Shown here one piece after another: positions 3,240 to 33,146 of a stretch of DNA of 64,000 nucleotides. How positions within the stretch are numbered: position 1 is the first letter of the stretch; the number at the start of each line of letters is the position of its first letter. The position numbers were made by a program, and so were the translations under genes. The notes below the pieces were generated by a model, which was not told the origin of the DNA, made no database searches, and saw nothing but the letters and a program-made list of their open reading frames with translations. Source of the stretch: Dermacentor variabilis (Eukaryota > Arthropoda > Arachnida > Ixodida > Ixodidae); the NCBI RefSeq assembly GCF_050947875.1, contig NC_134568.1:211301632-211365631 (forward strand). The letters run 5' to 3'.

Positions 3240-3710
3240 AACAAAAAAAACAATTTAGAAACAAAAAAAAATCTGCAACTAACTTTTACCGATCACAGGA
3301 TCAGTCGCGGGAAATTTTAACCATCAAGTAGGCAACTAATTTAGCTACGTTGAACAAACGCACTTATTACTTACCAGCCCTGGGCGGATTATCCACACTT
3401 GTTTTTGCTACCTCGTTGTCAACTTCAGAAACATGCAAATTCCCTGCTTCGCATACCAGTGCACGGAGATAGCCCGAATACCAACTACTCAGTAAAATCT
3501 GCAGGAGTCTTCCTCAATTCACGAAAATTCCTGACCGCCAGTCGCGTTCGTATAACCACTACGTAAGAACCATTTTCGGCCTTTTCCTTCCACATTATAC
3601 ACTTTCAACGTTCCTGCAGTTCACAATTTTCAAGTGCGTAAACACGCACACTTTACGAAATTACTACAGACGCATCCTATGAATATGCGTCATTCATTCT
3701 TTTAGAGAAT
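3240..3710. other. AT-rich stretch with no visible feature
   Basis: Contains A-runs near 3242-3270 and no coding frame or element end that I recognise. It ends at the CAG-rich tract (about 3711-3725) that forms the 3' tail side of the following minus-strand LINE. Confidence 0.4.
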
Positions 3711-4376
3711 CAGCAGCAGCAGCAGCCTATTTTTTATGTCCACTGCAGGACGAAGGCATCTCCCTGCGAACTCCAATTACCCCTGTCTTGCGCTAGCTGA
3801 TTACAACTTACGCCTGCAAATTTCATAATTTCATCATCCCACCTAATTTTCTGCTGTCCTCGACTGCGCTTGTCTTTCCTTGGGACCCATTTTGTAACTC
3901 TAATGATCCACCGGTTGCCTACCCTACGCATTACATGGCCTGCCTAGCTTTTTCTTTTTTTTTAAATCTTAATGTCAACTACAATATCGGCTATACCCGT
4001 TTGCTCGCTGATTCACACTTCTCTCTTCCTGTTCCTTAACGTTACGCCTAACATTTTTCGTACCATCACTCTTTGCGCGGATAGCGCCGTCCGAATGCAA
4101 TGATTGTACACTTTTCTTTTCAACGACAGTGATAAACTCCCAGTCAGGATTTGGTAATGCCTGCCGTCTGCACTCCAACCCATTTTTATTTATCTTTAAA
4201 TGTCCTTCTCGTGATCAGAGTCTCATGTGCGTAATTAACCTAGATAAACATACTCCGGCACCGACTCTAGAGGCTGATTGGCAATCACGAATTCTCGTTC
4301 CCTTGCCAGGCTATTGAACATTACACATACGCCCTTCTGCATATTAATCTCCAACCCCCCTCTTGCACTTTCTTGG

Positions 4377-4884
4377 TTAAAGGGACACTAGAGAGAAAAA
4401 TAATTTCACCTGTACCTGCAAATTATACCCTCCTACAGTACCAAAAGCACCATCATTACCGCGAGAAGACGCTAGGTAAGCCGAAAAATGTACAATCACG
4501 AAAGACGGGCGGCGACGCCGCCTTGGCTTTCCCGCGCGAGCCCACCGTGACGTCAGGAATTCCGACATCATCTGCTGGGTTCTCGTTCATTATTTATGGG
4601 TCAAAGTAAACTACAATGTGTTCTAAAGTAGCTAAGGAATGAACTTTCACTAAGGAATGAAGTTGCGGGAACTTTCACTGAGCCCAACGCTGTCCCAAAA
4701 TCCGTGACGTCCCACTAACGTACAGGCTTTGGGGTTCCGGCGCGAAATTCAAAAAATTAAACTTTGACCGTCATTTTCTTTCCTCATAATCAACACATTA
4801 ACGCGAAATTAACGCCAATAGAGTTCTCAAACAATTGTTTATCAGTCCAAACTTATTTATTGTTTTGCTTTACTGTCCCTCTAA
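4377..4884. mobile_element. MITE with TTAAAGGGACACTA-type inverted ends
   Basis: A 508-bp insert inside the LINE. The left end reads TTAAAGGGACACTAGAGAG, and the right end, read on the opposite strand, TTAGAGGGACAGTAAAGC. These are imperfect inverted repeats of about 28 bp. It has no coding capacity. LINE sequence continues on both sides. The TTAA start suggests a TTAA-targeting (piggyBac-like) origin, but the right end is CTAA on the plus strand, so the target duplication is degraded or misassigned. Confidence 0.6.
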
Positions 4885-11173: not shown

Positions 11174-14100
11174 TTAGGGGCTTCGACTTAAGCCATCGGC
11201 GTTACCGTTGAGACTCCCCTTTTTGTAACGCACCTCAAAGGAATATTGTTGCAAAGCGAGGCTCCAGCGCAGGAGGCGGCCATTTTTGGGAGAGATGGTC
11301 TGCAGCCATTGGAGAGGGCAGTGATCCGTCTCAATGATAAACCTCGAGCCGGCTAGATAGCATGACAATTTCTGAACGGCCCACACGAGACACGCACACT
11401 CTTTCTCGGTGGCGCTGTACGCCTGCTCACGACTGGTCAGCTTACGACTAGCATACAGGACGGGGTGTTCTACTTCTCCATTTTCCCGTTGGCACAGTAC
11501 AACGCCCATGCCTCGCTCACTAGCATCGCACTGAACAACGAACCCTTTTGTGTAGTCGGGCGATCGTAGCACAGGCTGGCTTGTTAGGGCACTCTTTAGG
11601 GCGCTAAAAGCTCTTTCCTTTGTCTCGTCCCAGACGACTGTTTGGGGCTCTGTCTTTCTTAGAGCATCCGTCAGGGGAGCCGCGATATCAGAGTACCTGG
11701 GGATGTACCTCTGATAGTAGCCGGCGACACCTAAGAACGACCGAATATCGGTCTTCGTGCGCGGTTGCGGGAAGTCTCGCACAGCGGCCACCTTTATTTC
11801 AGAGGGGCGGCGACGACCCCGACCAATCACGTGAGCGAGGTAGACAACCTCGGCCTGTGCTAACTGGCACTTGGGAGCCTTGACTGTCAAGCCCGCATCG
11901 TGCAGGCGGGTTAGCACTGCCCGCAAGTGGGCCATATGCTTAGACCAGGATGCGGAGAATATCGCTACGTCGTCTAGATACGGTAAAGCGAATTCTTGCT
12001 GTCCCCGCAACACTTTATCCATGAGGCTTGAAAAGCAGTATGGCGCGTTCTTCAAACCAAAACTCAAAACTTTAGGACGGAACGTTCCCATTGGTGAAAT
12101 GAACGCCGCATACCTACTAGCCTCTTCTGTAAGTGGAACCTGCCAATAACCCCTGACAAGATCTAGGGTGGAAATAAACTGAGCGCTACTAACTTTCTCA
12201 AGGCGCTCCTCGATGTTAGGGATCGGATAAATTTGATCCTTAGTGATGGAATTAAGCCTGCGGTAGTCGACGCAAGGACGAGGTTCCTTGCCCGGTACCT
12301 CAACTAAAATCAAAGGGGAGGTATAATCACTCTCACCTGCCTCAATAACACCGAGCTGTAGCATTTTCTTTACCTCAGCCTCCATAATATCGCTCTGGCG
12401 GGGTGACACCCGGTACGCCTTGGATCGTACTGGCTCTGGGGAGGTAAGTTCTATATCATGAGTAAGGACAGAAGTCCTACCAGGCCTCTCAGAGAACAGA
12501 CCTTGAAACTCTTGTAAGAGCTGGTGTAGTTCGGTTTTCTGCTCAGGCGACAGCGATGCTCTACTGATTAAGTCACTAATGACTTGATCGGTGTCTTTCC
12601 TGTTCGTCACTGAGCCTAGTCCCGGAAGCTCGACCGGAAGCTCTTCAGGAACGTTTACCATCATGCACACCACTGCTTCCCGTTGTTTATAGGGTTTGAG
12701 CAGATTACAGTGGTAAACTTGCTGTGCTTTCCGCTTTCCTGGCAGACTCACCACGTAGTTGACGTCCGACAGTTTTTGAACAATTCGTGCTGGGCCCTCC
12801 CACTGCACGTCTAGTTTGTTTTTTAGCGATGTGCGCAATAGCATGACCTCATCGCCCACTTCAAAACGACGGGCCCTGGCTGTCCGATCGTAATAAACCT
12901 TGGCCCTCTGCTGGGCCTTTGCCATTGCTTCACCTGACAACTCCTGTGCCCTTCTTAAGCGTTCGAGGAGCTTAAGCACGTACTCCACCACGACTGGGTC
13001 GTCGCCCCTGCCTTCCCACGATTCTCGAAGCATGCGAAGCGGAGATCGCAGCGAGCGACCGTACACCAGCTCAGCTGGCGAAAACCCCGTAGCCGCATGC
13101 GGCGCGGTCCGTAATGCAAACATCACCCCAGGCAGACACAGCTCCCAGTCGGTTTGATGTTCAAAACACAATGCTCTCAACACGCGCTTCATGACGGAGT
13201 GGAGCTTCTCAACGGAATTCGACTGTGGGTGGTACACTGAGCTGTGTAACAGCTTTACCCCACACCTTTCGAGAAAAGTTGTCGTCAAAGCGCTAGTAAA
13301 CACTGTGCCCTGATCTGATTGGATTTCCGCAGGAAAACCAACTCGCGCAAATATGGACAGTAGTGCATTGACTATCTCAACTGAGCTGAGTTCTTTAAGC
13401 GGCACTGCTTCAGGGAACTTTGTCGCTGGGCAGATCACAGTCAAAATGTGTCTGTACCCCGTGGCTGTTACCGGCAGAGGTCCCACTGTATCAATAACGA
13501 GCCGTCTAAAAGGCTCCGTAATGATAGGTACCAATCTCAACGGCGCCCTCGATTTGTCCCCTGGTTTGCCCAGCCGCTGACAGGTGTCACATGTCCTCAC
13601 GAAATGGTCTGCGTCCCGAAAACACCCTGGCCAATAGTACTCTTGCAAGAGACGGTCCTTAGTTTTCTTAACTCCTAGGTGTCCGGACCACGAACCCCCG
13701 TGCGACAAGCGCAACAGATCCTGACGATAGCATTGAGGAACGATCAGCTGATCGAACTCCACTCCCCTGCGGTCTAGATACTTCCGGTACAGGACCCCAC
13801 CTCTTTCCACAAAGCGAGCATTTTTCTTGGCGATACCTTCCTTGACAATGCAGCGTATGTTTTCTAGGCTGCCATCCTTCTTTTGCTCGGCTACCAAAGC
13901 CGACCGGCTGACTTTTAGCAACCTATTAAGTCCGTCTGACGTAGGCGCGATGAGCAAATCTGCAGATAGCTCTTCTAACTTTCCCGCATCGGGAATTTCC
14001 TCTCCAGTATCTGGTGCCTTTAACGCTACAGGCTCAATTTTATTCAGTTCGGGCGTGCTCTGAATATCAGCTTGCTGCGCCTCTGACCCTTTTTCATTGT

Positions 14101-15646
14101 TTGACAACGTCGGCCCCGCAACTACCGCCTTTGCAGCGAGCTCCCGAACCTTCGATCTGGTTAAGGCCTGAACGCTAGCCTCACCAAACAAAAGCCCCTT
14201 CTCGCGCAGGAGGTGATCGGACCTGTTCGAAAATAGGTACGGGTACTGGGGGGGCAGCATAGATGACACTGCGGCCTCCGTCTCAAGTGCTCCGAAAGGT
14301 CCTTCAATAAGCACTTTTGCTACGGGCAGACACACGCTATGAGCTTCCACGGCTTGCTTGATCCATGCGCACTCGCCCGTGAACATATCGGGTTCTACGT
14401 AGGAGGGGTGAACTACATCCATCGTAGCTGCGGAATCGCGAAGCACTCGGCACTCTTTCCCGTTCACGAGGAGGTCTCGCATGTAAGGCTCGAGAAGCTT
14501 CATGTTCTCGTCAGTGCTGCATAATGACAAAAACACGACTTTTGTTTTTGTTTCCGGACACTGCGCCGAAAAGTGACCCGGCTTCTGGCACGTATAACAC
14601 ACGCGCGCTTGCCTCGTCTCGAACCGCTTTCTGCGTTCGGCTTCGGCTGCCGCCGTCTCCTTACGTTCTGTCGGACTGCTTTCACTCGCATCCGCACTAC
14701 GTGTGTCCCCCTTTAATCTCATGGGCGTGAACTTCGGTCTCTCAAACTTCGAGCCAAATTCACCCTTTTGACCGTCCTTAGCTCCGCGAGCCCGACGCGT
14801 CACAAACTCCTCGGCTAGCTCAGCGGCTTTAGCCACTGTACTAACGTCTGGCCTATCCAAGACCCAGTACCGCACGTTCTCAGGTAACCGACTATAAAAC
14901 TGTTCTAGCCCGAAACACTGCAGAACTTTCTCGTGGTCACCAAACGCTTTCTCTTCTTTGAGCCACTCCTGCATGTTTGACATTAGCCTGTAGGCAAACT
15001 CTGTATATGACTCACTTCTGCCTTTCTCATTTTCCCGAAACTTCCGACGGAACGCCTCCGCTGACAGCCTGTACTTTTTTAGCAGACTCGATTTCACTTT
15101 GTCGAAATCCTCTGCCTCCTCTCTATTCAAGCGAGCGACTACGTCGGCCGCCTCGCCGGGTAACAAAGTGAGCAAGCGCTGTGGCCACGTTTCCCGAGAG
15201 AACCCCTGCTTCTCGCACGTTCGCTGGAAGTTAACCAGGAACAAACCAATGTCCTCTCCAAGCTTAAACGGCCGCATCAGGTCAGTCATTTTGAACAATA
15301 CTCGTTCTCCTGCACCGTGTGCCTGACTTCCATTACGAGCGCGTTCCATCTCTACCCCGAGACGCTTCATTTCCAAAGCGTGGTCGCGCTCTTCTTTTTC
15401 TTTCTCTTTTTGTTCTTTAAGTTCGCGCTCCTGTTTCTCTTTTTGCTCTTTAAGTTCGCGCTCCTGTCTTTTTGCAGTCTCCCTCTCCTCAATGGTCTCA
15501 AGGCATTCCGACAGCTCGTCATCCTCAGCTTCTAACTCAAGAATAGCCCTCAGCAGTTCTGGTTTTCTGAGTTTGTCTGAGACATCCAGACCCAACTCTC
15601 TTGCAAGCTCCAGCAATTTCGGTTTGCGCAACGACTTCAAATCCAT
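11174..15646 (-). CDS. Gmr1-like Gag-Pro-IN-RT-RH polyprotein, intact
   Basis: 1490 codons without a stop, start ATG at 15646. Order by residue: SAP-like N-terminus (1-35; KLLELARELGLDVSDKLRKP); Glu/Lys coiled coil (about 45-105); capsid-like Gag (about 115-290); zinc knuckle CYTCQKPGHFSAQC (about 348-361); protease-like block with RDSAATMDVV (about 405, DSA for the usual DSG/DTG); integrase H2C2 zinc motif (about 645-690, HLGVKKTK and CDTCQ); integrase core with D in VIDTVGPLP, D in SDQGTVFTS and E in NSVEKLHS (about 718-815); GPY/SH3-like tail (about 900-970); RT (about 1070-1250) with YLDDVAIFS; RNase H (from about 1373) with CDASERGMG and ATEKEC. Gag and pol are fused in one frame. All key catalytic residues are visible, so it may be active. 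It encodes the element's capsid and replication enzymes. Confidence 0.92.
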   Translation of the reverse strand: MDLKSLRKPKLLELARELGLDVSDKLRKPELLRAILELEAEDDELSECLETIEERETAKRQERELKEQKEKQERELKEQKEKEKEERDHALEMKRLGVEMERARNGSQAHGAGERVLFKMTDLMRPFKLGEDIGLFLVNFQRTCEKQGFSRETWPQRLLTLLPGEAADVVARLNREEAEDFDKVKSSLLKKYRLSAEAFRRKFRENEKGRSESYTEFAYRLMSNMQEWLKEEKAFGDHEKVLQCFGLEQFYSRLPENVRYWVLDRPDVSTVAKAAELAEEFVTRRARGAKDGQKGEFGSKFERPKFTPMRLKGDTRSADASESSPTERKETAAAEAERRKRFETRQARVCYTCQKPGHFSAQCPETKTKVVFLSLCSTDENMKLLEPYMRDLLVNGKECRVLRDSAATMDVVHPSYVEPDMFTGECAWIKQAVEAHSVCLPVAKVLIEGPFGALETEAAVSSMLPPQYPYLFSNRSDHLLREKGLLFGEASVQALTRSKVRELAAKAVVAGPTLSNNEKGSEAQQADIQSTPELNKIEPVALKAPDTGEEIPDAGKLEELSADLLIAPTSDGLNRLLKVSRSALVAEQKKDGSLENIRCIVKEGIAKKNARFVERGGVLYRKYLDRRGVEFDQLIVPQCYRQDLLRLSHGGSWSGHLGVKKTKDRLLQEYYWPGCFRDADHFVRTCDTCQRLGKPGDKSRAPLRLVPIITEPFRRLVIDTVGPLPVTATGYRHILTVICPATKFPEAVPLKELSSVEIVNALLSIFARVGFPAEIQSDQGTVFTSALTTTFLERCGVKLLHSSVYHPQSNSVEKLHSVMKRVLRALCFEHQTDWELCLPGVMFALRTAPHAATGFSPAELVYGRSLRSPLRMLRESWEGRGDDPVVVEYVLKLLERLRRAQELSGEAMAKAQQRAKVYYDRTARARRFEVGDEVMLLRTSLKNKLDVQWEGPARIVQKLSDVNYVVSLPGKRKAQQVYHCNLLKPYKQREAVVCMMVNVPEELPVELPGLGSVTNRKDTDQVISDLISRASLSPEQKTELHQLLQEFQGLFSERPGRTSVLTHDIELTSPEPVRSKAYRVSPRQSDIMEAEVKKMLQLGVIEAGESDYTSPLILVEVPGKEPRPCVDYRRLNSITKDQIYPIPNIEERLEKVSSAQFISTLDLVRGYWQVPLTEEASRYAAFISPMGTFRPKVLSFGLKNAPYCFSSLMDKVLRGQQEFALPYLDDVAIFSASWSKHMAHLRAVLTRLHDAGLTVKAPKCQLAQAEVVYLAHVIGRGRRRPSEIKVAAVRDFPQPRTKTDIRSFLGVAGYYQRYIPRYSDIAAPLTDALRKTEPQTVVWDETKERAFSALKSALTSQPVLRSPDYTKGFVVQCDASERGMGVVLCQRENGEVEHPVLYASRKLTSREQAYSATEKECACLVWAVQKLSCYLAGSRFIIETDHCPLQWLQTISPKNGRLLRWSLALQQYSFEVRYKKGSLNGNADGLSRSP

Positions 15647-15961
15647 GGCTGCTCTGAATGCTGCTTTCTCTACTGCCTATTATTGTCTTGCCGCAAACTA
15701 ACCCGGCAGCAACGACAACCACAATTACCAGCTCTGTTTCTGACACTAACAAAAGCCTGGCAAAACTCAGAAGAAGAATGTCCCGCACTCACCAAACCTC
15801 GCAGCCAAGAATTCAGCGCAGTCGTTCCGCTGCAGGCAACCAGTCATCACACAGGGCTCGTTGCACTGCTCCCGGATGGTCGTTGTGCTGCTCAGCATAC
15901 AGTCAACTGCATATCTTCGCTGCTGGCCTCCGTTGTCGCGATCTCACCGCTGGCAGACAGT
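15647..15961 (-). other. 5' leader of the Gmr1-like element
   Basis: About 315 bp between the 5' LTR and the Gag start. On the minus strand the sequence just after the LTR reads ACTGTCTGCCAGCGGTGAG. It has no obvious TGG-initial primer-binding site, so the priming tRNA is not identified. Confidence 0.5.
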
Positions 15962-27480: not shown

Positions 27481-27788
27481 TAAAAAAAAATGTATGATTT
27501 CAGAATGTATGCAGCCCATGTATGCAGCCTAAGCATCTCCGTTGGTAATCCGTCCCCATATGAATGTTGCGGCCCCACGAATTCTTTGTGGCCCCAAAGT
27601 GCCCTATGTTTCATTATTGCTGCATTCCGCTTCCGTTTTTTTTTTGTTATTATCTTTGTGGGTGCTCCTTCGTTTACGTATACGCCGAGGTATTCATATT
27701 GCTTGACTATGGGTATGGCACTTGCTGTTGTATCGACATCACGTGGTTAACCGTCTATTCATATAGATCATAATTCCCGATTTCTCTG
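27481..27788 (-). pseudogene. C-terminal RT piece of the LINE that continues at 33147
   Basis: On the minus strand from 27788: TEKSGIMIYMNRR, then after a frameshift a YEYLGVYVNEGAPTKI block. These are the thumb-side motifs that follow the catalytic site in LINE RTs. The minus frame at 33147 ends AATNLGI, the part directly before such a sequence. The two are therefore parts of one LINE, separated by a CR1 copy and the BEL element. Confidence 0.6.
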
Positions 27789-27942
27789 TGTTGAATATTA
27801 TACTCCGAAAAAAGAAGAGAAGAAGAAGAAGTGAGAAACGAGCGTGGAGCCGAGCGTGCGCCGGCATTTTTTTAGTTGTTTTTACAAGCGTCGAATAAAA
27901 GAAGACGTTCTCTACTTCGGCTCCGCTTCCTGGTTTTCAACA
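27789..27942 (+). repeat. 5' LTR of the BEL/Pao element
   Basis: 154 bp, TGTTGAATATT...GGTTTTCAACA. Carries AATAAA (27894-27899). Preceded by the target duplication CTCTG (27784-27788) and followed by TGGTGCCGTGACCAGGAT (27945-27962), a likely tRNA primer-binding site of the BEL type. Confidence 0.9.
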
Positions 27943-28107
27943 TATGGTGCCGTGACCAGGATTTCAGATTTACAGTTGAAGACCCCTGACGATGAAGCGA
28001 GCTACCTGAAGAGGACGACCGACTGACGCGATCAACACGACGACGCTGCGACAGAATCGAAGAACGATCCACGACATCACGAAGCCACCGATTCCTGACG
28101 TGGCGAC

Positions 28108-31100
28108 ATGGAAAGACTACGACGGAAGCGTGCTACCGTTCGAGCGGCGGTCACCAGGATCATCAACGAGATGACAACTCTTATGCAGACGGAACCAACG
28201 CCATATGGTGAGCTGACCGACCATCTTAACCTATTGAAGATAAAGGAAACTATGCTTACGGACCTTGATAACCAAGTAGAAGAGCATGTTACGGATGATA
28301 ACCTTGAGGATGAGCTTCAAAGCGTCGGACAGTATCAACAATCTATCGTCCTCGCGAAATCCCGCGCTGAACGCATTTTATCCGATCAGCAAACAACGAC
28401 TACGCACGAATCTCACGATGACTTTCGTCAAGCTCGCGCACACGTTAAGCTACCGAAGCTCGATGTGCCGAAGTTTCATGGTGACCACATTAAATGGCTG
28501 GAATTTTGGGATCAATTTGAGTCTACTATTCACCAGAACCGATATATTACCGACGTAGACAAATTGAAATATCTTCGGAGCTACTTGATGGGTAAAGCGG
28601 AAGGTGTCATCAGCGGCCTGTCGACAACTAACGAGAGCTATAGCACGGCTATAGAACTTCTCAAAGAAAGATTCGGTCAGAAGTCACTGATTGTTAACGA
28701 CCACATGCGTCGCCTTCTAAACCTACGTAAAGTTTGTTCTTGCGAAGATTTCGAAGGGCTTCAAAGGTTGCATGAAGAAGTGCAGACTCGCGTGAGATCC
28801 CTGCATAACCTTGGCGTCGAAGAAAAAGAATATGGAGTGCTTCTGAAAACTGCTATAATACAAAATCTTCCGCAAGAAATGGTACTCCGTTATAATCAGC
28901 GCATCTTGTCTTCGACAAATACAGGCGTTACTAGTGACAGGCTAAATGAAATGTCTGTTCTTCTAGACTTCTTGAGTCTTGAAGTAAGAAGCATGGAACC
29001 GGGAACTATAATAATGACTTCTGACAAGAGAGAACAAGCCTCAACAGCAAAACGACAATCTAATGAGCATTTCCAAGGTTCTGCATCTATGCTAACCGTG
29101 AAACTGACTCCAGAGAGTTGTATATTATGCGGAGACAAAGATCACTCGGTGGATGTCTGCCCAACGGAACTAACATTAGACGAGAAAAAGCAGAAACTAC
29201 GGAAATTAGGATGCTGTTTCCGCTGCGCTAGACAATTTCACAAAGCTAAGGAATGCCGAAGCTGGAAGAGACTAAGCTGTGCGAAATGCAAGGGACGACA
29301 TATCACCACGATGTGTGACCCAAAATGGAAGCAGAAGAATACAGAAACGCAGACAACTGTATCCAGCTCATCGACGGACTCGCTAAAGTACAGAGTTCTT
29401 CTGCAGACCACCCAAGTTTGGGCTCTGGGCACTGGAAGCAAATGCTTTGTAAGAATGTTGATTGATGGTGGCAGTCAACGCAGCTTCATCACGGAAGAAT
29501 TGTCTAGGAAGCTGAAAGCCACTGTGTTAGCCGAAGAGCAGCTCACAATCTCGGGATTTGGAAACGTTTCAGCACCGCGCAAATATTATCGAAGAGTACG
29601 AGTCACGCTGCATAGCCAGTACGACTCAAACTCACTAGAAGTAGAGGCGATAGAAGTTCCCGAAATATGCAATGACTTGTCAGCATTGACAGATACAAAT
29701 GTACTTGCAAAGTTGAAAAGCAAGAACTTACGTTTGGCTGACGTCAACGCAGTTCAGGTCTCGTCTGAGCCTGGAATAAGCATCCTTATAGGTGCCGACT
29801 ATTACTGGCAGCTTGTCAGAGGAAGAATTCATCGACTGGACGACTCCTTGACCGCCATCGAAACTATAATAGGATGGACACTTCATGGAGATACCAGAAG
29901 TCCACCTAAGGTCTACAAGCCGGAAACCGTAAGGAACTTCAACATATGCCTAACGGAAGCCAATGTTTCCCAGCAACTGATGTCTTCCTGGGAAATAGAA
30001 CATCTGGGACTGACTAACGAAGGCAGACTTTCGAAAGATGACGAACACGTCCTGAAGAACTTCGTGGAAACAACTATTAGAAACAATGGTCGCGATCAAG
30101 TTGAACTGCCGTGGCGCAGCAATTGTTCCCAGCCTAAAAATAACTGTGATATCACGTTAAAGAGGCTGGAGTCCTTGCAGAGAACGCTACATCGAGAACC
30201 AGAGTTTCAGAAGAAATATGACACTGCCATTAGGAGCTACTATAACAAAGACTACGCTGAGAAGGTCACAATGGACAGTACGAGTGAACATATCACGTAC
30301 TATATGCCACACCGAGCAGTAGTGCGACGCGACAGAACTACGACTGAAGTACGGGTGGTATCCGACGCCTCTTCTCATGCTCCGGAGTCACCTTCACTCG
30401 ACGACGTCTTGTGGACAGGGCCGAATTTGAACCTCAACATCATCGACTTACGGCTGAAGTTTCGCAGCTTCAACATTATAATTTCCGCCGATACCGAAAA
30501 AGCGTTTCTTCAAATATCGCTGGCTGAACAAGACCGAGACGCGTTTCGTTACTTCTGGTTTGAAGAAGGATCTTCCAATATTGAAGAACTGCGCATCACA
30601 AGGGTTCCTTTTGGTGCCTGCAGCAGTCCCTTTCTCCTTGCTACAACTCTGCGACACCACTTCCAACTGGTAGAAGACAAATACCCTTCTACTGCCAAAC
30701 TATTGAAATATCTTCACAAAATCGCGGCTACTAATAGTGTGTCGGCTACTGAAGGACAGTCATGGAATTATTGGGCCAAAACTATCTGCTTCAGGAGTCC
30801 AGAAAACAAAGAAGCCGATAGAGAGACAGAGACAGCGAAAAGAGAAAGCGATGCCATGAAATTAAGAAAAGAGGATATGGAACTTTTCGGATTTTGTCTA
30901 GCGTGGGATGATTTCTATTTAGTTGTGCGTGAAATATGTAACCAAGTCACAAAACCACAGGCTCTGCGAAATCACTTGGAGCAGCGGCATGGGAGCATTG
31001 ACACCTTTGGTCGGGGTGACCACACTGCTGACACGTCCGTGCTCCACCCGGCGGGTGGAGAGAAGTCGTCGGGGCACAGCTCCTTGTCATTGTCGTCCTC

Positions 31101-31374
31101 GTCGTCGTCTTCAACGTCATCGTCTTCCGCCCCGAGACACTCGAGCGGGCCTGCCGGGCGCCCGTCGTCAACGTCGGCTCCATCTGGGTCCTCACTGTCA
31201 GGGAGGCACAGCAGTGGGGTGAAAAGGCTAAAACGCAACAACCACATGCTGGCCCCCGTTGTCCAGGTGGAGCGAATGCCACTTCCACGACAGCCTGAAA
31301 AGCCATGGCTGCCCGCAACATCTCGCCAGGCCTTGAAAAGGAATTACCTTCACCCCAGCAGCCACCACCTTTAA
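28108..31374 (+). CDS. BEL Gag-Pro-RT(partial)-ataxin-7-like fusion ORF
   Basis: 1088 codons, no internal stop. Residues 1-110: Gag helical region. About 114-300: DUF1759-type Gag (VPKFHGDHIKWLEFWDQFES). About 340-403: Cys/His knuckles (CCFRCARQFHKAKEC, CAKCKGRHITTMC). About 450: retropepsin-like DUF1758 with LIDGGSQRSFITEEL, where BEL elements usually show DSGS, so Ser is replaced by Gly. About 750-868: BEL RT (VVSDASSHAPESPSLDDVLW, FLQISLAEQDRDAFRYFWF, RVPFGACSSPFLLATTLRHH). The YVDD catalytic motif is absent. From about 872: ataxin-7-like sequence with RKEDMELFGFCLAWDDFYLV and NQVTKPQALRNHLEQRHGS (917-963), then a Ser-rich tract. RT is therefore inactive. The protein, if made, would be Gag-protease with a host-derived C-terminus. 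Confidence 0.82.
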   Translation: MERLRRKRATVRAAVTRIINEMTTLMQTEPTPYGELTDHLNLLKIKETMLTDLDNQVEEHVTDDNLEDELQSVGQYQQSIVLAKSRAERILSDQQTTTTHESHDDFRQARAHVKLPKLDVPKFHGDHIKWLEFWDQFESTIHQNRYITDVDKLKYLRSYLMGKAEGVISGLSTTNESYSTAIELLKERFGQKSLIVNDHMRRLLNLRKVCSCEDFEGLQRLHEEVQTRVRSLHNLGVEEKEYGVLLKTAIIQNLPQEMVLRYNQRILSSTNTGVTSDRLNEMSVLLDFLSLEVRSMEPGTIIMTSDKREQASTAKRQSNEHFQGSASMLTVKLTPESCILCGDKDHSVDVCPTELTLDEKKQKLRKLGCCFRCARQFHKAKECRSWKRLSCAKCKGRHITTMCDPKWKQKNTETQTTVSSSSTDSLKYRVLLQTTQVWALGTGSKCFVRMLIDGGSQRSFITEELSRKLKATVLAEEQLTISGFGNVSAPRKYYRRVRVTLHSQYDSNSLEVEAIEVPEICNDLSALTDTNVLAKLKSKNLRLADVNAVQVSSEPGISILIGADYYWQLVRGRIHRLDDSLTAIETIIGWTLHGDTRSPPKVYKPETVRNFNICLTEANVSQQLMSSWEIEHLGLTNEGRLSKDDEHVLKNFVETTIRNNGRDQVELPWRSNCSQPKNNCDITLKRLESLQRTLHREPEFQKKYDTAIRSYYNKDYAEKVTMDSTSEHITYYMPHRAVVRRDRTTTEVRVVSDASSHAPESPSLDDVLWTGPNLNLNIIDLRLKFRSFNIIISADTEKAFLQISLAEQDRDAFRYFWFEEGSSNIEELRITRVPFGACSSPFLLATTLRHHFQLVEDKYPSTAKLLKYLHKIAATNSVSATEGQSWNYWAKTICFRSPENKEADRETETAKRESDAMKLRKEDMELFGFCLAWDDFYLVVREICNQVTKPQALRNHLEQRHGSIDTFGRGDHTADTSVLHPAGGEKSSGHSSLSLSSSSSSSTSSSSAPRHSSGPAGRPSSTSAPSGSSLSGRHSSGVKRLKRNNHMLAPVVQVERMPLPRQPEKPWLPATSRQALKRNYLHPSSHHL

Positions 31375-31600
31375 CCCCTGGAGGGCTAGGAATGCTGTCA
31401 TGGGCCGGGGCCAGGGCAGGCCAGTCACATAACACCCGACGCATGCACCAGCAGCACGTCGGCAGTGGTGGCTGCGACGGCTTCCACTGCGGCACCTACT
31501 CCCATCAGGAAGACAGCAATGGTTCCACCACGAGCACAGCAAAGTGCTCATGGTGCCGACGGCAAAGTTCACTCATGCAAAGTGCGCACTTTTAGTGGCA
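30718..31600 (+). other. Captured ataxin-7 (SGF73/ATXN7)-like host segment
   Basis: The translation shows SWNYWAKTICFRSPENKEAD, MKLRKEDMELFGFCLAWDDF and the zinc-binding SGF73/ATXN7 block with ICNQVTKPQ and NHLEQRH. The usual Cys-x2-Cys is VREIC, so the first zinc ligand is Arg (CGT for TGT). It then has a Ser-rich run and LAPVVQVERMPLP. Base composition is more GC-rich than the BEL part. After about 31300 the coding-like reading moves to another frame (LEKELPSPQQPPPLTPGG), so a frameshift is likely. Ataxin-7 anchors the deubiquitinase module to SAGA (family knowledge). The apparent lack of introns across the block suggests capture from mRNA. The 3' limit is uncertain. Confidence 0.75.
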
Positions 31601-31702
31601 ACACGTTGTGGAGACCGCCACAGACGCTGTACCACCTAGAATCTGCCGGACAAGCTCCGTCTTGAAAAGAAACAAGCACGCGCAAATTGTTCGGCCGGGA
31701 GC

Positions 31703-31852
31703 TGTTGAATTTATGCTCCGAAAAAAGAAGAGAAGAAGAAGTGAGAAACGAGCGTGGAGCCGAGCGCGCGCCGGCATTTTTTTAGTTGTTTTTACAAGCG
31801 TCGAATAACAGAAGACGTTCTCTACTTCGGCTCCGCTTCCTGGTTTTCAACA
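31703..31852 (+). repeat. 3' LTR of the BEL/Pao element
   Basis: 150 bp, TGTTGAATTTATG...GGTTTTCAACA. Same as the 5' LTR except a GAA-unit loss and a few substitutions, including AATAAC in place of the AATAAA signal. Followed by CTCTG (31853-31857). Confidence 0.9.
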
Positions 31853-33146
31853 CTCTGTGCTAAACTGTGCTATTGGTATAACTGGCCCGGCACTGCAATT
31901 ACTACGTAACTATTTGAAAGATAGAGAATACACTGTATCAATCTCCAGCACTTACTCGCACCCTAAAACAACTAACATGGGTGTACCACAAGGATCTATA
32001 TTAGGGCCTCTCTTGTTTTTAATATACATTAATGACCTCCCAAAGTACCTAAAGTCCTCTGACTGTAACCTTTACGCTGACGACACTACCATCTTCTCCT
32101 CAGACAAAAGTCTTGATTCATTGATGTGTAAGCTTAATCACGACACGGCAAATATTGTAACCTGGTACCAACTAAACAGACTACACATTAATACTGCCAA
32201 ATCTAACTTCTTGATCTTCTCAGCTAAACAAAAACATATATCAGTGTATCCATCGCTAACCTTTGCTTCCAGTGCACTTTATCCTACTGATAGTGTACTG
32301 TTTCTTGGCGTCATATTAGATAAACACCTAAAATTTGACGAGCATGTTTTATCCTTAACAAAGAAGGCTGCATATGGAATTAGAATATTAATTAAAGTTC
32401 GCAATTTCTTTAATATGAAGACACTCATCTCCCTCTACTACGCTTTTATTCACACGCATATTAATTATTGCATATCATCATGGGGAAACACGTATCCCAC
32501 ACATTTATCTCCACTACAGCATACCCAAAATCAAGCAATTCGCATCATTACACGTAGCAGCTACACATCGGAAGCATCTCCATTGCTCAGATCTAACGGC
32601 ATTTTATCGTTACAGAAACTAAATAAATACTCACTTGGAATACTTGTTTATAAATCTGTTAACGGAAAGCTCCCATTCCCTATAATTACTACCAGCCAGT
32701 ATCCATATTCCACGTCTACCCGTTTCGCTTCTACCAACAGCTATTTACTACCAAAACCTAGAACTAATTATGGTAAATTTACTACTAATTTTTCAGCCAC
32801 ACTACTTTGGAACTCATTACCGTGTCATATTAAGATATCCTCTCATTTTTACACATTCAAATCAAACCTTCGTAAATTTTTGCACTCAATATAACAATTT
32901 CATCATTATCATTTTATTAATAAGTGATTTGTGTTGTTAAATATTTTACAGTGTAAGCTAGCGAGTAACTTAATATGGTGTCTTTTGTGTTTTCATAAAG
33001 CTGCTTTGTATTTATATATCCTACTCATTTGTAATGGGAGGTCCCCTGTACAGTCTCTTGACTATGGGACCTCCCTCTGTATGTATGTATAATCCCCATT
33101 TGTAACCTTATTATTATGCAGATAAAGAACTCTTGAACTCTTGAAT
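31853..33146 (+). mobile_element. CR1/L2-like LINE, 5'-truncated
   Basis: Plus-strand 3' half of a LINE: RT from just before the PQGS motif, C-terminal domain, and a 250-bp 3' UTR ending in repeated ctcttgaa units (33127-33145), a typical CR1/L2 tail. It was inserted in the minus-strand LINE whose parts lie at 27481-27788 and from 33147. The BEL element then inserted at or within a few bases of its 5' junction. Confidence 0.8.
31857..32894 (+). pseudogene. Partial CR1/L2-like reverse transcriptase, open
   Basis: 345 codons without a stop. NMGVPQGSILGPLLFLIYIN and LYADDTTIFSSDK (catalytic YADD), WYQLNRLHINTAKSNFLIFS, FLGVILDKHLKFDEHV, then the LINE C-terminal block SLYYAFIHTHINYCISSWGN and LLWNSLPCHIK. 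RT begins mid-domain, and finger motifs and endonuclease are missing because of 5' truncation, so it cannot work alone. The ATG at 31857 overlaps the target duplication and is unlikely to be a natural start. The open frame shows the copy is young. Confidence 0.8.

Follow-up and report, generated by a model that had tools for sequence, protein, structure and literature searches.

A 64-kb stretch of the genome of the tick Dermacentor variabilis (contig NC_134568.1; "the window" below means the whole of this stretch) contains, at positions 27789-31852, a long terminal repeat (LTR) retrotransposon of the BEL/Pao group whose reading frame passes from BEL sequence into the 5' part of the host gene ataxin-7. 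The ataxin-7 part is spliced, has BEL sequence on both sides, and recurs with the same breakpoint in separate insertions elsewhere in the assembly. We consider it very likely (a probability of roughly 0.9) that a BEL/Pao element acquired spliced ataxin-7 mRNA by a template switch and then became a non-autonomous family moved in trans.

A BEL/Pao element with a spliced host segment

The element lies within a perfect 5-bp target-site duplication (TSD), CTCTG, at 27784-27788 and 31853-31857, so that insertion and duplication together span 27784-31857. All its features are on the plus strand. The 5' LTR (27789-27942, 154 nt) has the ends TGTTGAA...TTCAACA; the 3' LTR (31703-31852, 150 nt) differs from it by three substitutions in 150 aligned sites and by two indels. 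A polyadenylation-like AATAAA in the 5' LTR of this copy (27894-27899) reads AATAAC in the 3' LTR (31804-31809). A TGG-type primer-binding site, TGGTGCCGTGACC, was read from the sequence at 27945-27957 and resembles what we take to be the 3' end of tRNA-His. In the other copies that have a 5' LTR, that LTR is followed by TATGGTGC, with L024 reading TATGTTGC.

A single open frame (28108-31374, 1088 amino acids) comprises BEL Gag, protease, a fragment of reverse transcriptase (RT) and then ataxin-7. This frame was cut into pieces and run against Pfam. The Gag portion (28108-29379) gave DUF1759 (E=1.9e-34, at about 28474-28905), the aspartic protease (29380-29979) gave DUF1758 (E=8.9e-7), the RT fragment (29980-30708) gave a partial RVT_1 match (E=1.9e-4), and the last piece gave nothing better than E=0.29. 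Zinc-knuckle motifs can be read by eye in the Gag translation at about 29119-29316. The element thus has a DUF1759 gag, a DUF1758 protease and a BEL-type RT in one frame, along with two LTRs, a primer site and a short TSD, as expected of a BEL/Pao member. The nearest BEL relative found is LOC119386031 (P0072) of Rhipicephalus sanguineus, a protein with Peptidase_A17 and RVT_1 that is 79% identical over protease and RT. The element does not have the full set of RT, RNase H and integrase that autonomy would require: the last RT residues are YPSTAKLLK, directly before the YVDD catalytic motif, and there the frame leaves BEL. The initial annotation had reported the two LTRs, the TGG-type primer site, the CTCTG duplication and the 1088-codon frame, all of which we confirm in the sequence. 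It had also stated that the RT end, RNase H and integrase are missing, which is nearly right; a small C-terminal remnant of integrase is present in the BEL 3' end (31541-31702), which closes with GGGAG directly upstream of the 3' LTR. Rfam and tRNA scans gave no match, scans of viral contigs gave no relatives, a protein search with a 218-aa piece by itself returned no match, probably owing to limits on length, and blastn with five pieces of it (threshold 1e-3) found no further chimera copy within the 64 kb.

That the end of the frame is ataxin-7, as the initial annotation had proposed, is borne out by translated matches: this part matches human ATXN7 in PDB (chain 7ktr_N, E=2.2e-19) and, in a protein search, the ataxin-7 of the tick Rhipicephalus microplus (80% identity, E=1e-93). 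Its low-complexity part gave one chance match in PDB (E=1.6). None of the 71 proteins matched by the ataxin part has a listed Gag domain, a weak negative since mobile proteins are often masked.

The donor gene is present in the same assembly (G000:C6:153487416-153491571, here L029), where it was found as separate exon matches. It bears introns, and its five exons have GT-AG borders; in L029 coordinates they lie at 207-304 (counted from the start of homology in the 5' untranslated region, UTR), 561-629, 1483-1587, 3409-3633 and 4269-4661. The acceptor of the second exon, TTTTCAGCAG, is a tandem acceptor, as the R. microplus proteins with SPEN and SPETD had suggested. Exon-by-exon comparison with this gene shows that window positions 30721-31537 are spliced coding sequence, host codons 1 to about 274. 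The four introns are precisely absent and all four exon joins are spliced, the former junctions falling at 30805/30806, 30874/30875, 30979/30980 and 31201/31202. The segment is therefore of RNA origin, and the route through RNA proposed at the outset holds, no host intron being retained. Another partial copy of the first exon, reversed and 81% identical to the window version, lies between host exons 3 and 4 at about 2830-2901 of L029, and may be another chimera fragment.

Of 196 residues aligned between the captured frame and the D. variabilis gene, 175 are identical, against 80% identity with R. microplus; the captured frame shifts in phase after about 31296. Residues that it has in common with the D. 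variabilis gene, seen by eye, include RNNH, GLGxL and ITPDxSTSSTS-like stretches. From this comparison and these residues, the capture probably took place in the Dermacentor lineage. Between window and host the ataxin part shows a nonsynonymous divergence (dN) of 0.050 and a synonymous divergence (dS) of 0.149. We rejected a capture date based on this divergence, which exceeds that between the LTRs because the capture predates this particular insertion.

Junctions and copies of the chimera

A search of the 2.48-Gb assembly, in which 150 of 166 candidates were scored, gave at least 58 matches, which were merged by hand into about 29 loci including the window, plus the host gene. The copies described below come from 21 of the 29 loci, namely the window and 20 that were fetched. 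In 20 of the 21, on many contigs, the junction between RT stub and ataxin-7 stands at the identical place, the exception being the fragment L027; in 15 of the 20 fetched copies both LTRs, gag, protease, the RT stub and ataxin-7 are all matched, some of them in part. Both ends could be read in 14 insertions, counting as one L017, L018 and L021, which lie within about 3.5 Mb on contig C9, have one TSD (AGGTC) and are the only segmental duplicates with shared flanks among the copies examined; this locus was probably duplicated after insertion. Ten of the 14 have perfect and mutually different TSDs (CTCTG, ACCTC, GGTCC, CTTGA, CCCCG, ATAAC, AGGTC, AGGCG, CATAT and GTATT), L015 and L022 have a TSD one base off, and none was seen in L020 or L026. 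A common breakpoint with separate TSDs means that the hybrid moved repeatedly as a chimera, as the initial annotation had supposed from one copy; the chimera is a family. Distances between paired LTRs (Kimura two-parameter) run from 0.007 in L023 to 0.091 in L028. L022 gives 0.118, with an interrupted 5' LTR, and the values for L024, where the LTR ends were extrapolated, and for L026 are unreliable.

At the 5' junction P0072 reads YPSTAKLLK-DHFYVDDLVIG (continuing past YPSTAKLLK as ...LLKDHFYVDDLVIG) where the window reads YPSTAKLLK-YLHK-IAATNSVSATEGQSW, and the host 5'-UTR at this point is CCAGATCTTCACAAA-ATGGCGGC. It follows from these comparisons that BEL stops at about 30708 and that YLHK is translated host 5'-UTR. 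The UTR piece occupies 30709-30720 (ATCTTCACAAA, against ...CCAGATCTTCACAAAATGG in the host), the host match beginning at about 30709/30710. The in-frame switch reported earlier is thus real, but the breakpoint is not at 30717 as had been proposed, and the host part begins in the 5'-UTR. The host ATG reads ATC in the window; among the 19 other copies covering the start, 17 have M and two (L019 and L023) have K. In L015, L016, L020, L022, L024, L025 and L026 the junction reads GAAAGATCTTCAC. The string AGATC is common to the host 5'-UTR and the long-form copies described below; on the BEL side only the protein sequence, K-D-H, is available. AGATC fits both parents, making it a possible match at the switch point.

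At the 3' junction the match to the host breaks off within exon 5, at about 31537. The stretch that the initial annotation had proposed to compare with ataxin-7 was 30718-31700; it is ataxin-7 to about 31537, but 31541-31702 is the 3' end of BEL. Eight long-form copies (L015, L016, L019, L020, L022, L024, L025 and L028) run about 240 nt beyond the form seen in the window, and in the four tested (L015, L020, L022 and L028) this extra sequence and what follows it match the C-terminal part of integrase in BEL proteins with PF18701 (DUF5641), namely P0153, P0163 and P0167, with E from 2e-8 to 2e-25. The 240 nt are absent from the window, the window-like copies, L023 and L026, which keep only the last part of the tail, so that the family has a subfamily structure. 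Reading 31540-31670 as the SCA7 region of ataxin-7 was tried and rejected: it needs several frameshifts and gaps, and the same stretch matches BEL integrase tails.

The host segment therefore sits between two pieces of BEL, an RT stub before it and an integrase tail after it, and host mRNA in this position is the signature of template switching. Could the BEL element instead have inserted into, or next to, an ataxin-7 processed pseudogene that was already in the DNA? Such a pseudogene would likewise be without introns, the BEL parent was compared at the junctions as protein, and eight of the 29 loci lie outside the fetched set. However, L027, a short fragment, is the one ataxin-7 retrocopy without BEL among the 20 fetched loci, there is no poly(A) at the 3' junction, and an origin of this kind would need two precise joins to leave BEL on both sides in the right order. 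We regard it as quite improbable.

State of the captured domain and selection

The initial annotation had seen in the chimera a route by which a domain of a chromatin complex could spread as a Gag fusion. For this to be so, the ataxin-7 domain would be functional cargo, its zinc finger used by the Gag fusion, for example to reach SAGA or chromatin, and kept by selection. In several copies the frame does continue past the junction, with open frames that reach 1091, 1252 and 1283 amino acids, and dN/dS between host and copies is below 1 (0.25-0.57), though this includes the constrained host branch. The motif itself is CxxC...HxxxxH, whose C and H positions we take to be zinc ligands. All four are kept in three of the 20 copies that cover the finger (L015, L016 and L019, each with stops in the ataxin part), but the other 17 lack at least one. 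The window copy has arginine for the first cysteine, as do all ten copies of its group (window, L009-L014, L017, L018 and L021), which represent eight separate insertions, so that a lineage multiplied with the change already present. L023, which has the most similar LTRs, keeps both cysteines and has D for the first histidine. A proline of the motif that is common to human, R. microplus, Ornithodoros and the host gene is replaced in all 20 copies (L in 19, V in one), and the ataxin part contains stops in 10 of the 18 copies counted. The SCA7 domain (PF08313) has no Pfam match in the window frame, host homology ending before the SCA7 region.

Selection was assessed by counting nonsynonymous and synonymous changes (N/S) common to at least two copies, with L018 and L021 (duplicates of L017) and the fragment L027 left out. 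The counts were 55/40 in gag (N:S sites 3.02, ratio about 0.46), 20/21 in protease (2.80, about 0.34), 50/17 in the RT stub (2.94, about 1.0) and 38/15 in the ataxin part (2.82, about 0.9). The difference between gag plus protease and RT plus ataxin is significant (Fisher p=0.0028; p=1.3e-5 for changes in at least three copies), and p stayed between 0.0006 and 0.0047 when each of eight copies was left out in turn. Gag plus protease depart from neutrality (p=8.6e-7) whereas RT plus ataxin do not (p=0.83), nor does the ataxin part by itself (binomial p=0.75); gag plus protease against ataxin alone gave p=0.047. Private changes of L023, whose LTRs are 0.7% apart, show the same contrast (gag plus protease 12N/18S, RT plus ataxin 28N/8S, p=0.0024). 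Private changes pooled over all copies do not (p=0.24), as expected for changes made after insertion. Subject to the caveats taken up below, the captured ataxin part evolves as if neutral while gag and protease are constrained. The host piece has the look of a passenger, not of a functioning part of a protein, a functional cargo is very improbable, and the proposed spread of a chromatin-complex domain fails on the absent SCA7, the lost zinc ligands and the lack of constraint. Weakest of all is the notion of a one-off retrocopy at the window locus or an assembly artefact, which is refuted by a junction common to 20 of 21 loci on many contigs and by ten different perfect TSDs.

Two side observations concern other mobile sequences in the window. 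The flanks at 27640-27788 (minus strand) and 31857-32894 (plus strand), read by eye, contain pieces resembling long interspersed nuclear element (LINE) reverse transcriptase on opposite strands, with YEYLGVYVNEG on the minus and GVPQGSILGPLLFLIYIND on the plus strand; the chimera may have inserted at or near the border between two LINE remnants. At 11174-15676 on the minus strand a Ty3/gypsy-like open frame of 1500 codons encodes Gag (SCAN, zinc knuckle), followed by integrase and then by RT and RNase H. Integrase precedes RT, an arrangement of Gmr1-like elements of deuterostomes that here occurs in a tick.

Origin, related systems and significance

We propose that, in the Dermacentor lineage, spliced ataxin-7 mRNA shared a particle with the RNA of a BEL/Pao element during reverse transcription, and that the polymerase left the BEL template for the ataxin-7 mRNA and later returned to BEL RNA. 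In this way the RT end, RNase H and most of the integrase would have given way to a host segment made up of 11-12 nt of 5'-UTR plus about 274 codons. The hybrid would have retained both LTRs, the primer site, gag and protease, possibly supplying its own Gag and protease. Because the YVDD motif, RNase H and most of the integrase are missing, mobilisation would have been in trans, with RT and integrase presumably supplied by relatives in which they are intact, giving rise to a non-autonomous family. From a later subfamily about 240 nt of the remaining integrase tail would have disappeared. Purifying selection would have preserved gag and protease, or recombination with kin would have refreshed them, with the RT stub and the captured ataxin-7 drifting along as passengers.

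Several points weigh against this scenario. Gag alone does not differ significantly from ataxin alone (p=0.11), and once CpG-context codons are removed the contrast points the same way (42/25 against 34/12) without reaching significance (p=0.23). Trees of the gag-protease and RT-ataxin parts, made also without the incomplete copies L010, L016, L019 and L025, conflict (approximately unbiased test, p<0.001 both ways), so recombination among copies or with relatives has occurred; the low N/S of gag could stem from exchange with kin instead of from constraint acting on the Gag of the chimera itself. The AGATC microhomology is judged on the BEL side from a protein relative only. Finally, P0073 and P0075, the D. 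variabilis BEL proteins found to have the YVDD motif, reach no more than 48% identity over the RT piece. The ataxin tree places the host gene inside the set of copies, at a low support of 48, and therefore does not date the capture.

In retroviral oncogene transduction a replication-defective hybrid is moved by helper functions; in the tick chimera no constraint was found on the captured part and no infectious particle is implied. LTR-mediated retroposition has reportedly been described in metazoans by Tan et al. (Genome Research, 2016).

Published work describes LTR-mediated retroposition in animals and plants (PMC5408686, PMC8232201), with template switching at microsimilarities (PMC5408686). 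As in the metazoan cases there, the tick chimera has a spliced mRNA fragment within an LTR element, flanking LTRs and signs of template switching, the host segment having element sequence on both sides. It differs in being a BEL/Pao element of a tick, and the hybrid itself was amplified, with at least ten insertions and subfamilies, an amplification described here for the tick side only. In maize, 425 intact LTR elements are reported to carry gene fragments, which trace to no fewer than 189 captures (PMC2774510). Bs1 and these elements likewise carry and amplify fragments of host genes, but they are there classed as copia, gypsy or unknown. In Plutella, retrotransposon-linked PxyMasc retrocopies produce piRNAs (PIWI-interacting RNAs; PMC9674220). 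Like the tick chimera, Pxyfem is multicopy and joins part of the cDNA of a regulatory host gene to LTR retrotransposon sequence; it is W-linked, lies in tandem arrays and yields piRNAs, and its authors did not find the LTRs needed for integration (PMC9674220), whereas the tick chimera consists of dispersed insertions with LTRs and TSDs. Among open-licence papers we found none on capture of ataxin-7 by BEL/Pao, and none on D. variabilis genomes or retrotransposons whose title pointed to the chimera. LTR-element capture is thus known in plants and animals, and what appears to be new here is an amplified BEL/Pao family with a host transcript.

The family might also be a dispersed source of RNA matching the 5' part of ataxin-7 mRNA, in which case piRNAs or small interfering RNAs against the element could also dampen ataxin-7. 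By analogy with Plutella this is conceivable but rather unlikely; the longest exact matches of the 21 copies to the 5' part of the host mRNA are 32-101 nt. If true, a selfish element would have gained a hold on a SAGA subunit, as retrocopies have for PxyMasc.

Annotation could mistake chimera copies for paralogues of ataxin-7. As an animal example of an LTR element that took up a spliced host transcript, and of a hybrid that went on to multiply, the family is a clear one, and within a single genome it offers the donor gene, the two junctions, a series of copies that differ in age and a contrast in selection. It could be used to study directly the persistence of host sequence after capture by a mobile family, the means by which gag and protease stay intact when RT is absent, and the possible supply by such families of small RNAs aimed at the donor gene.

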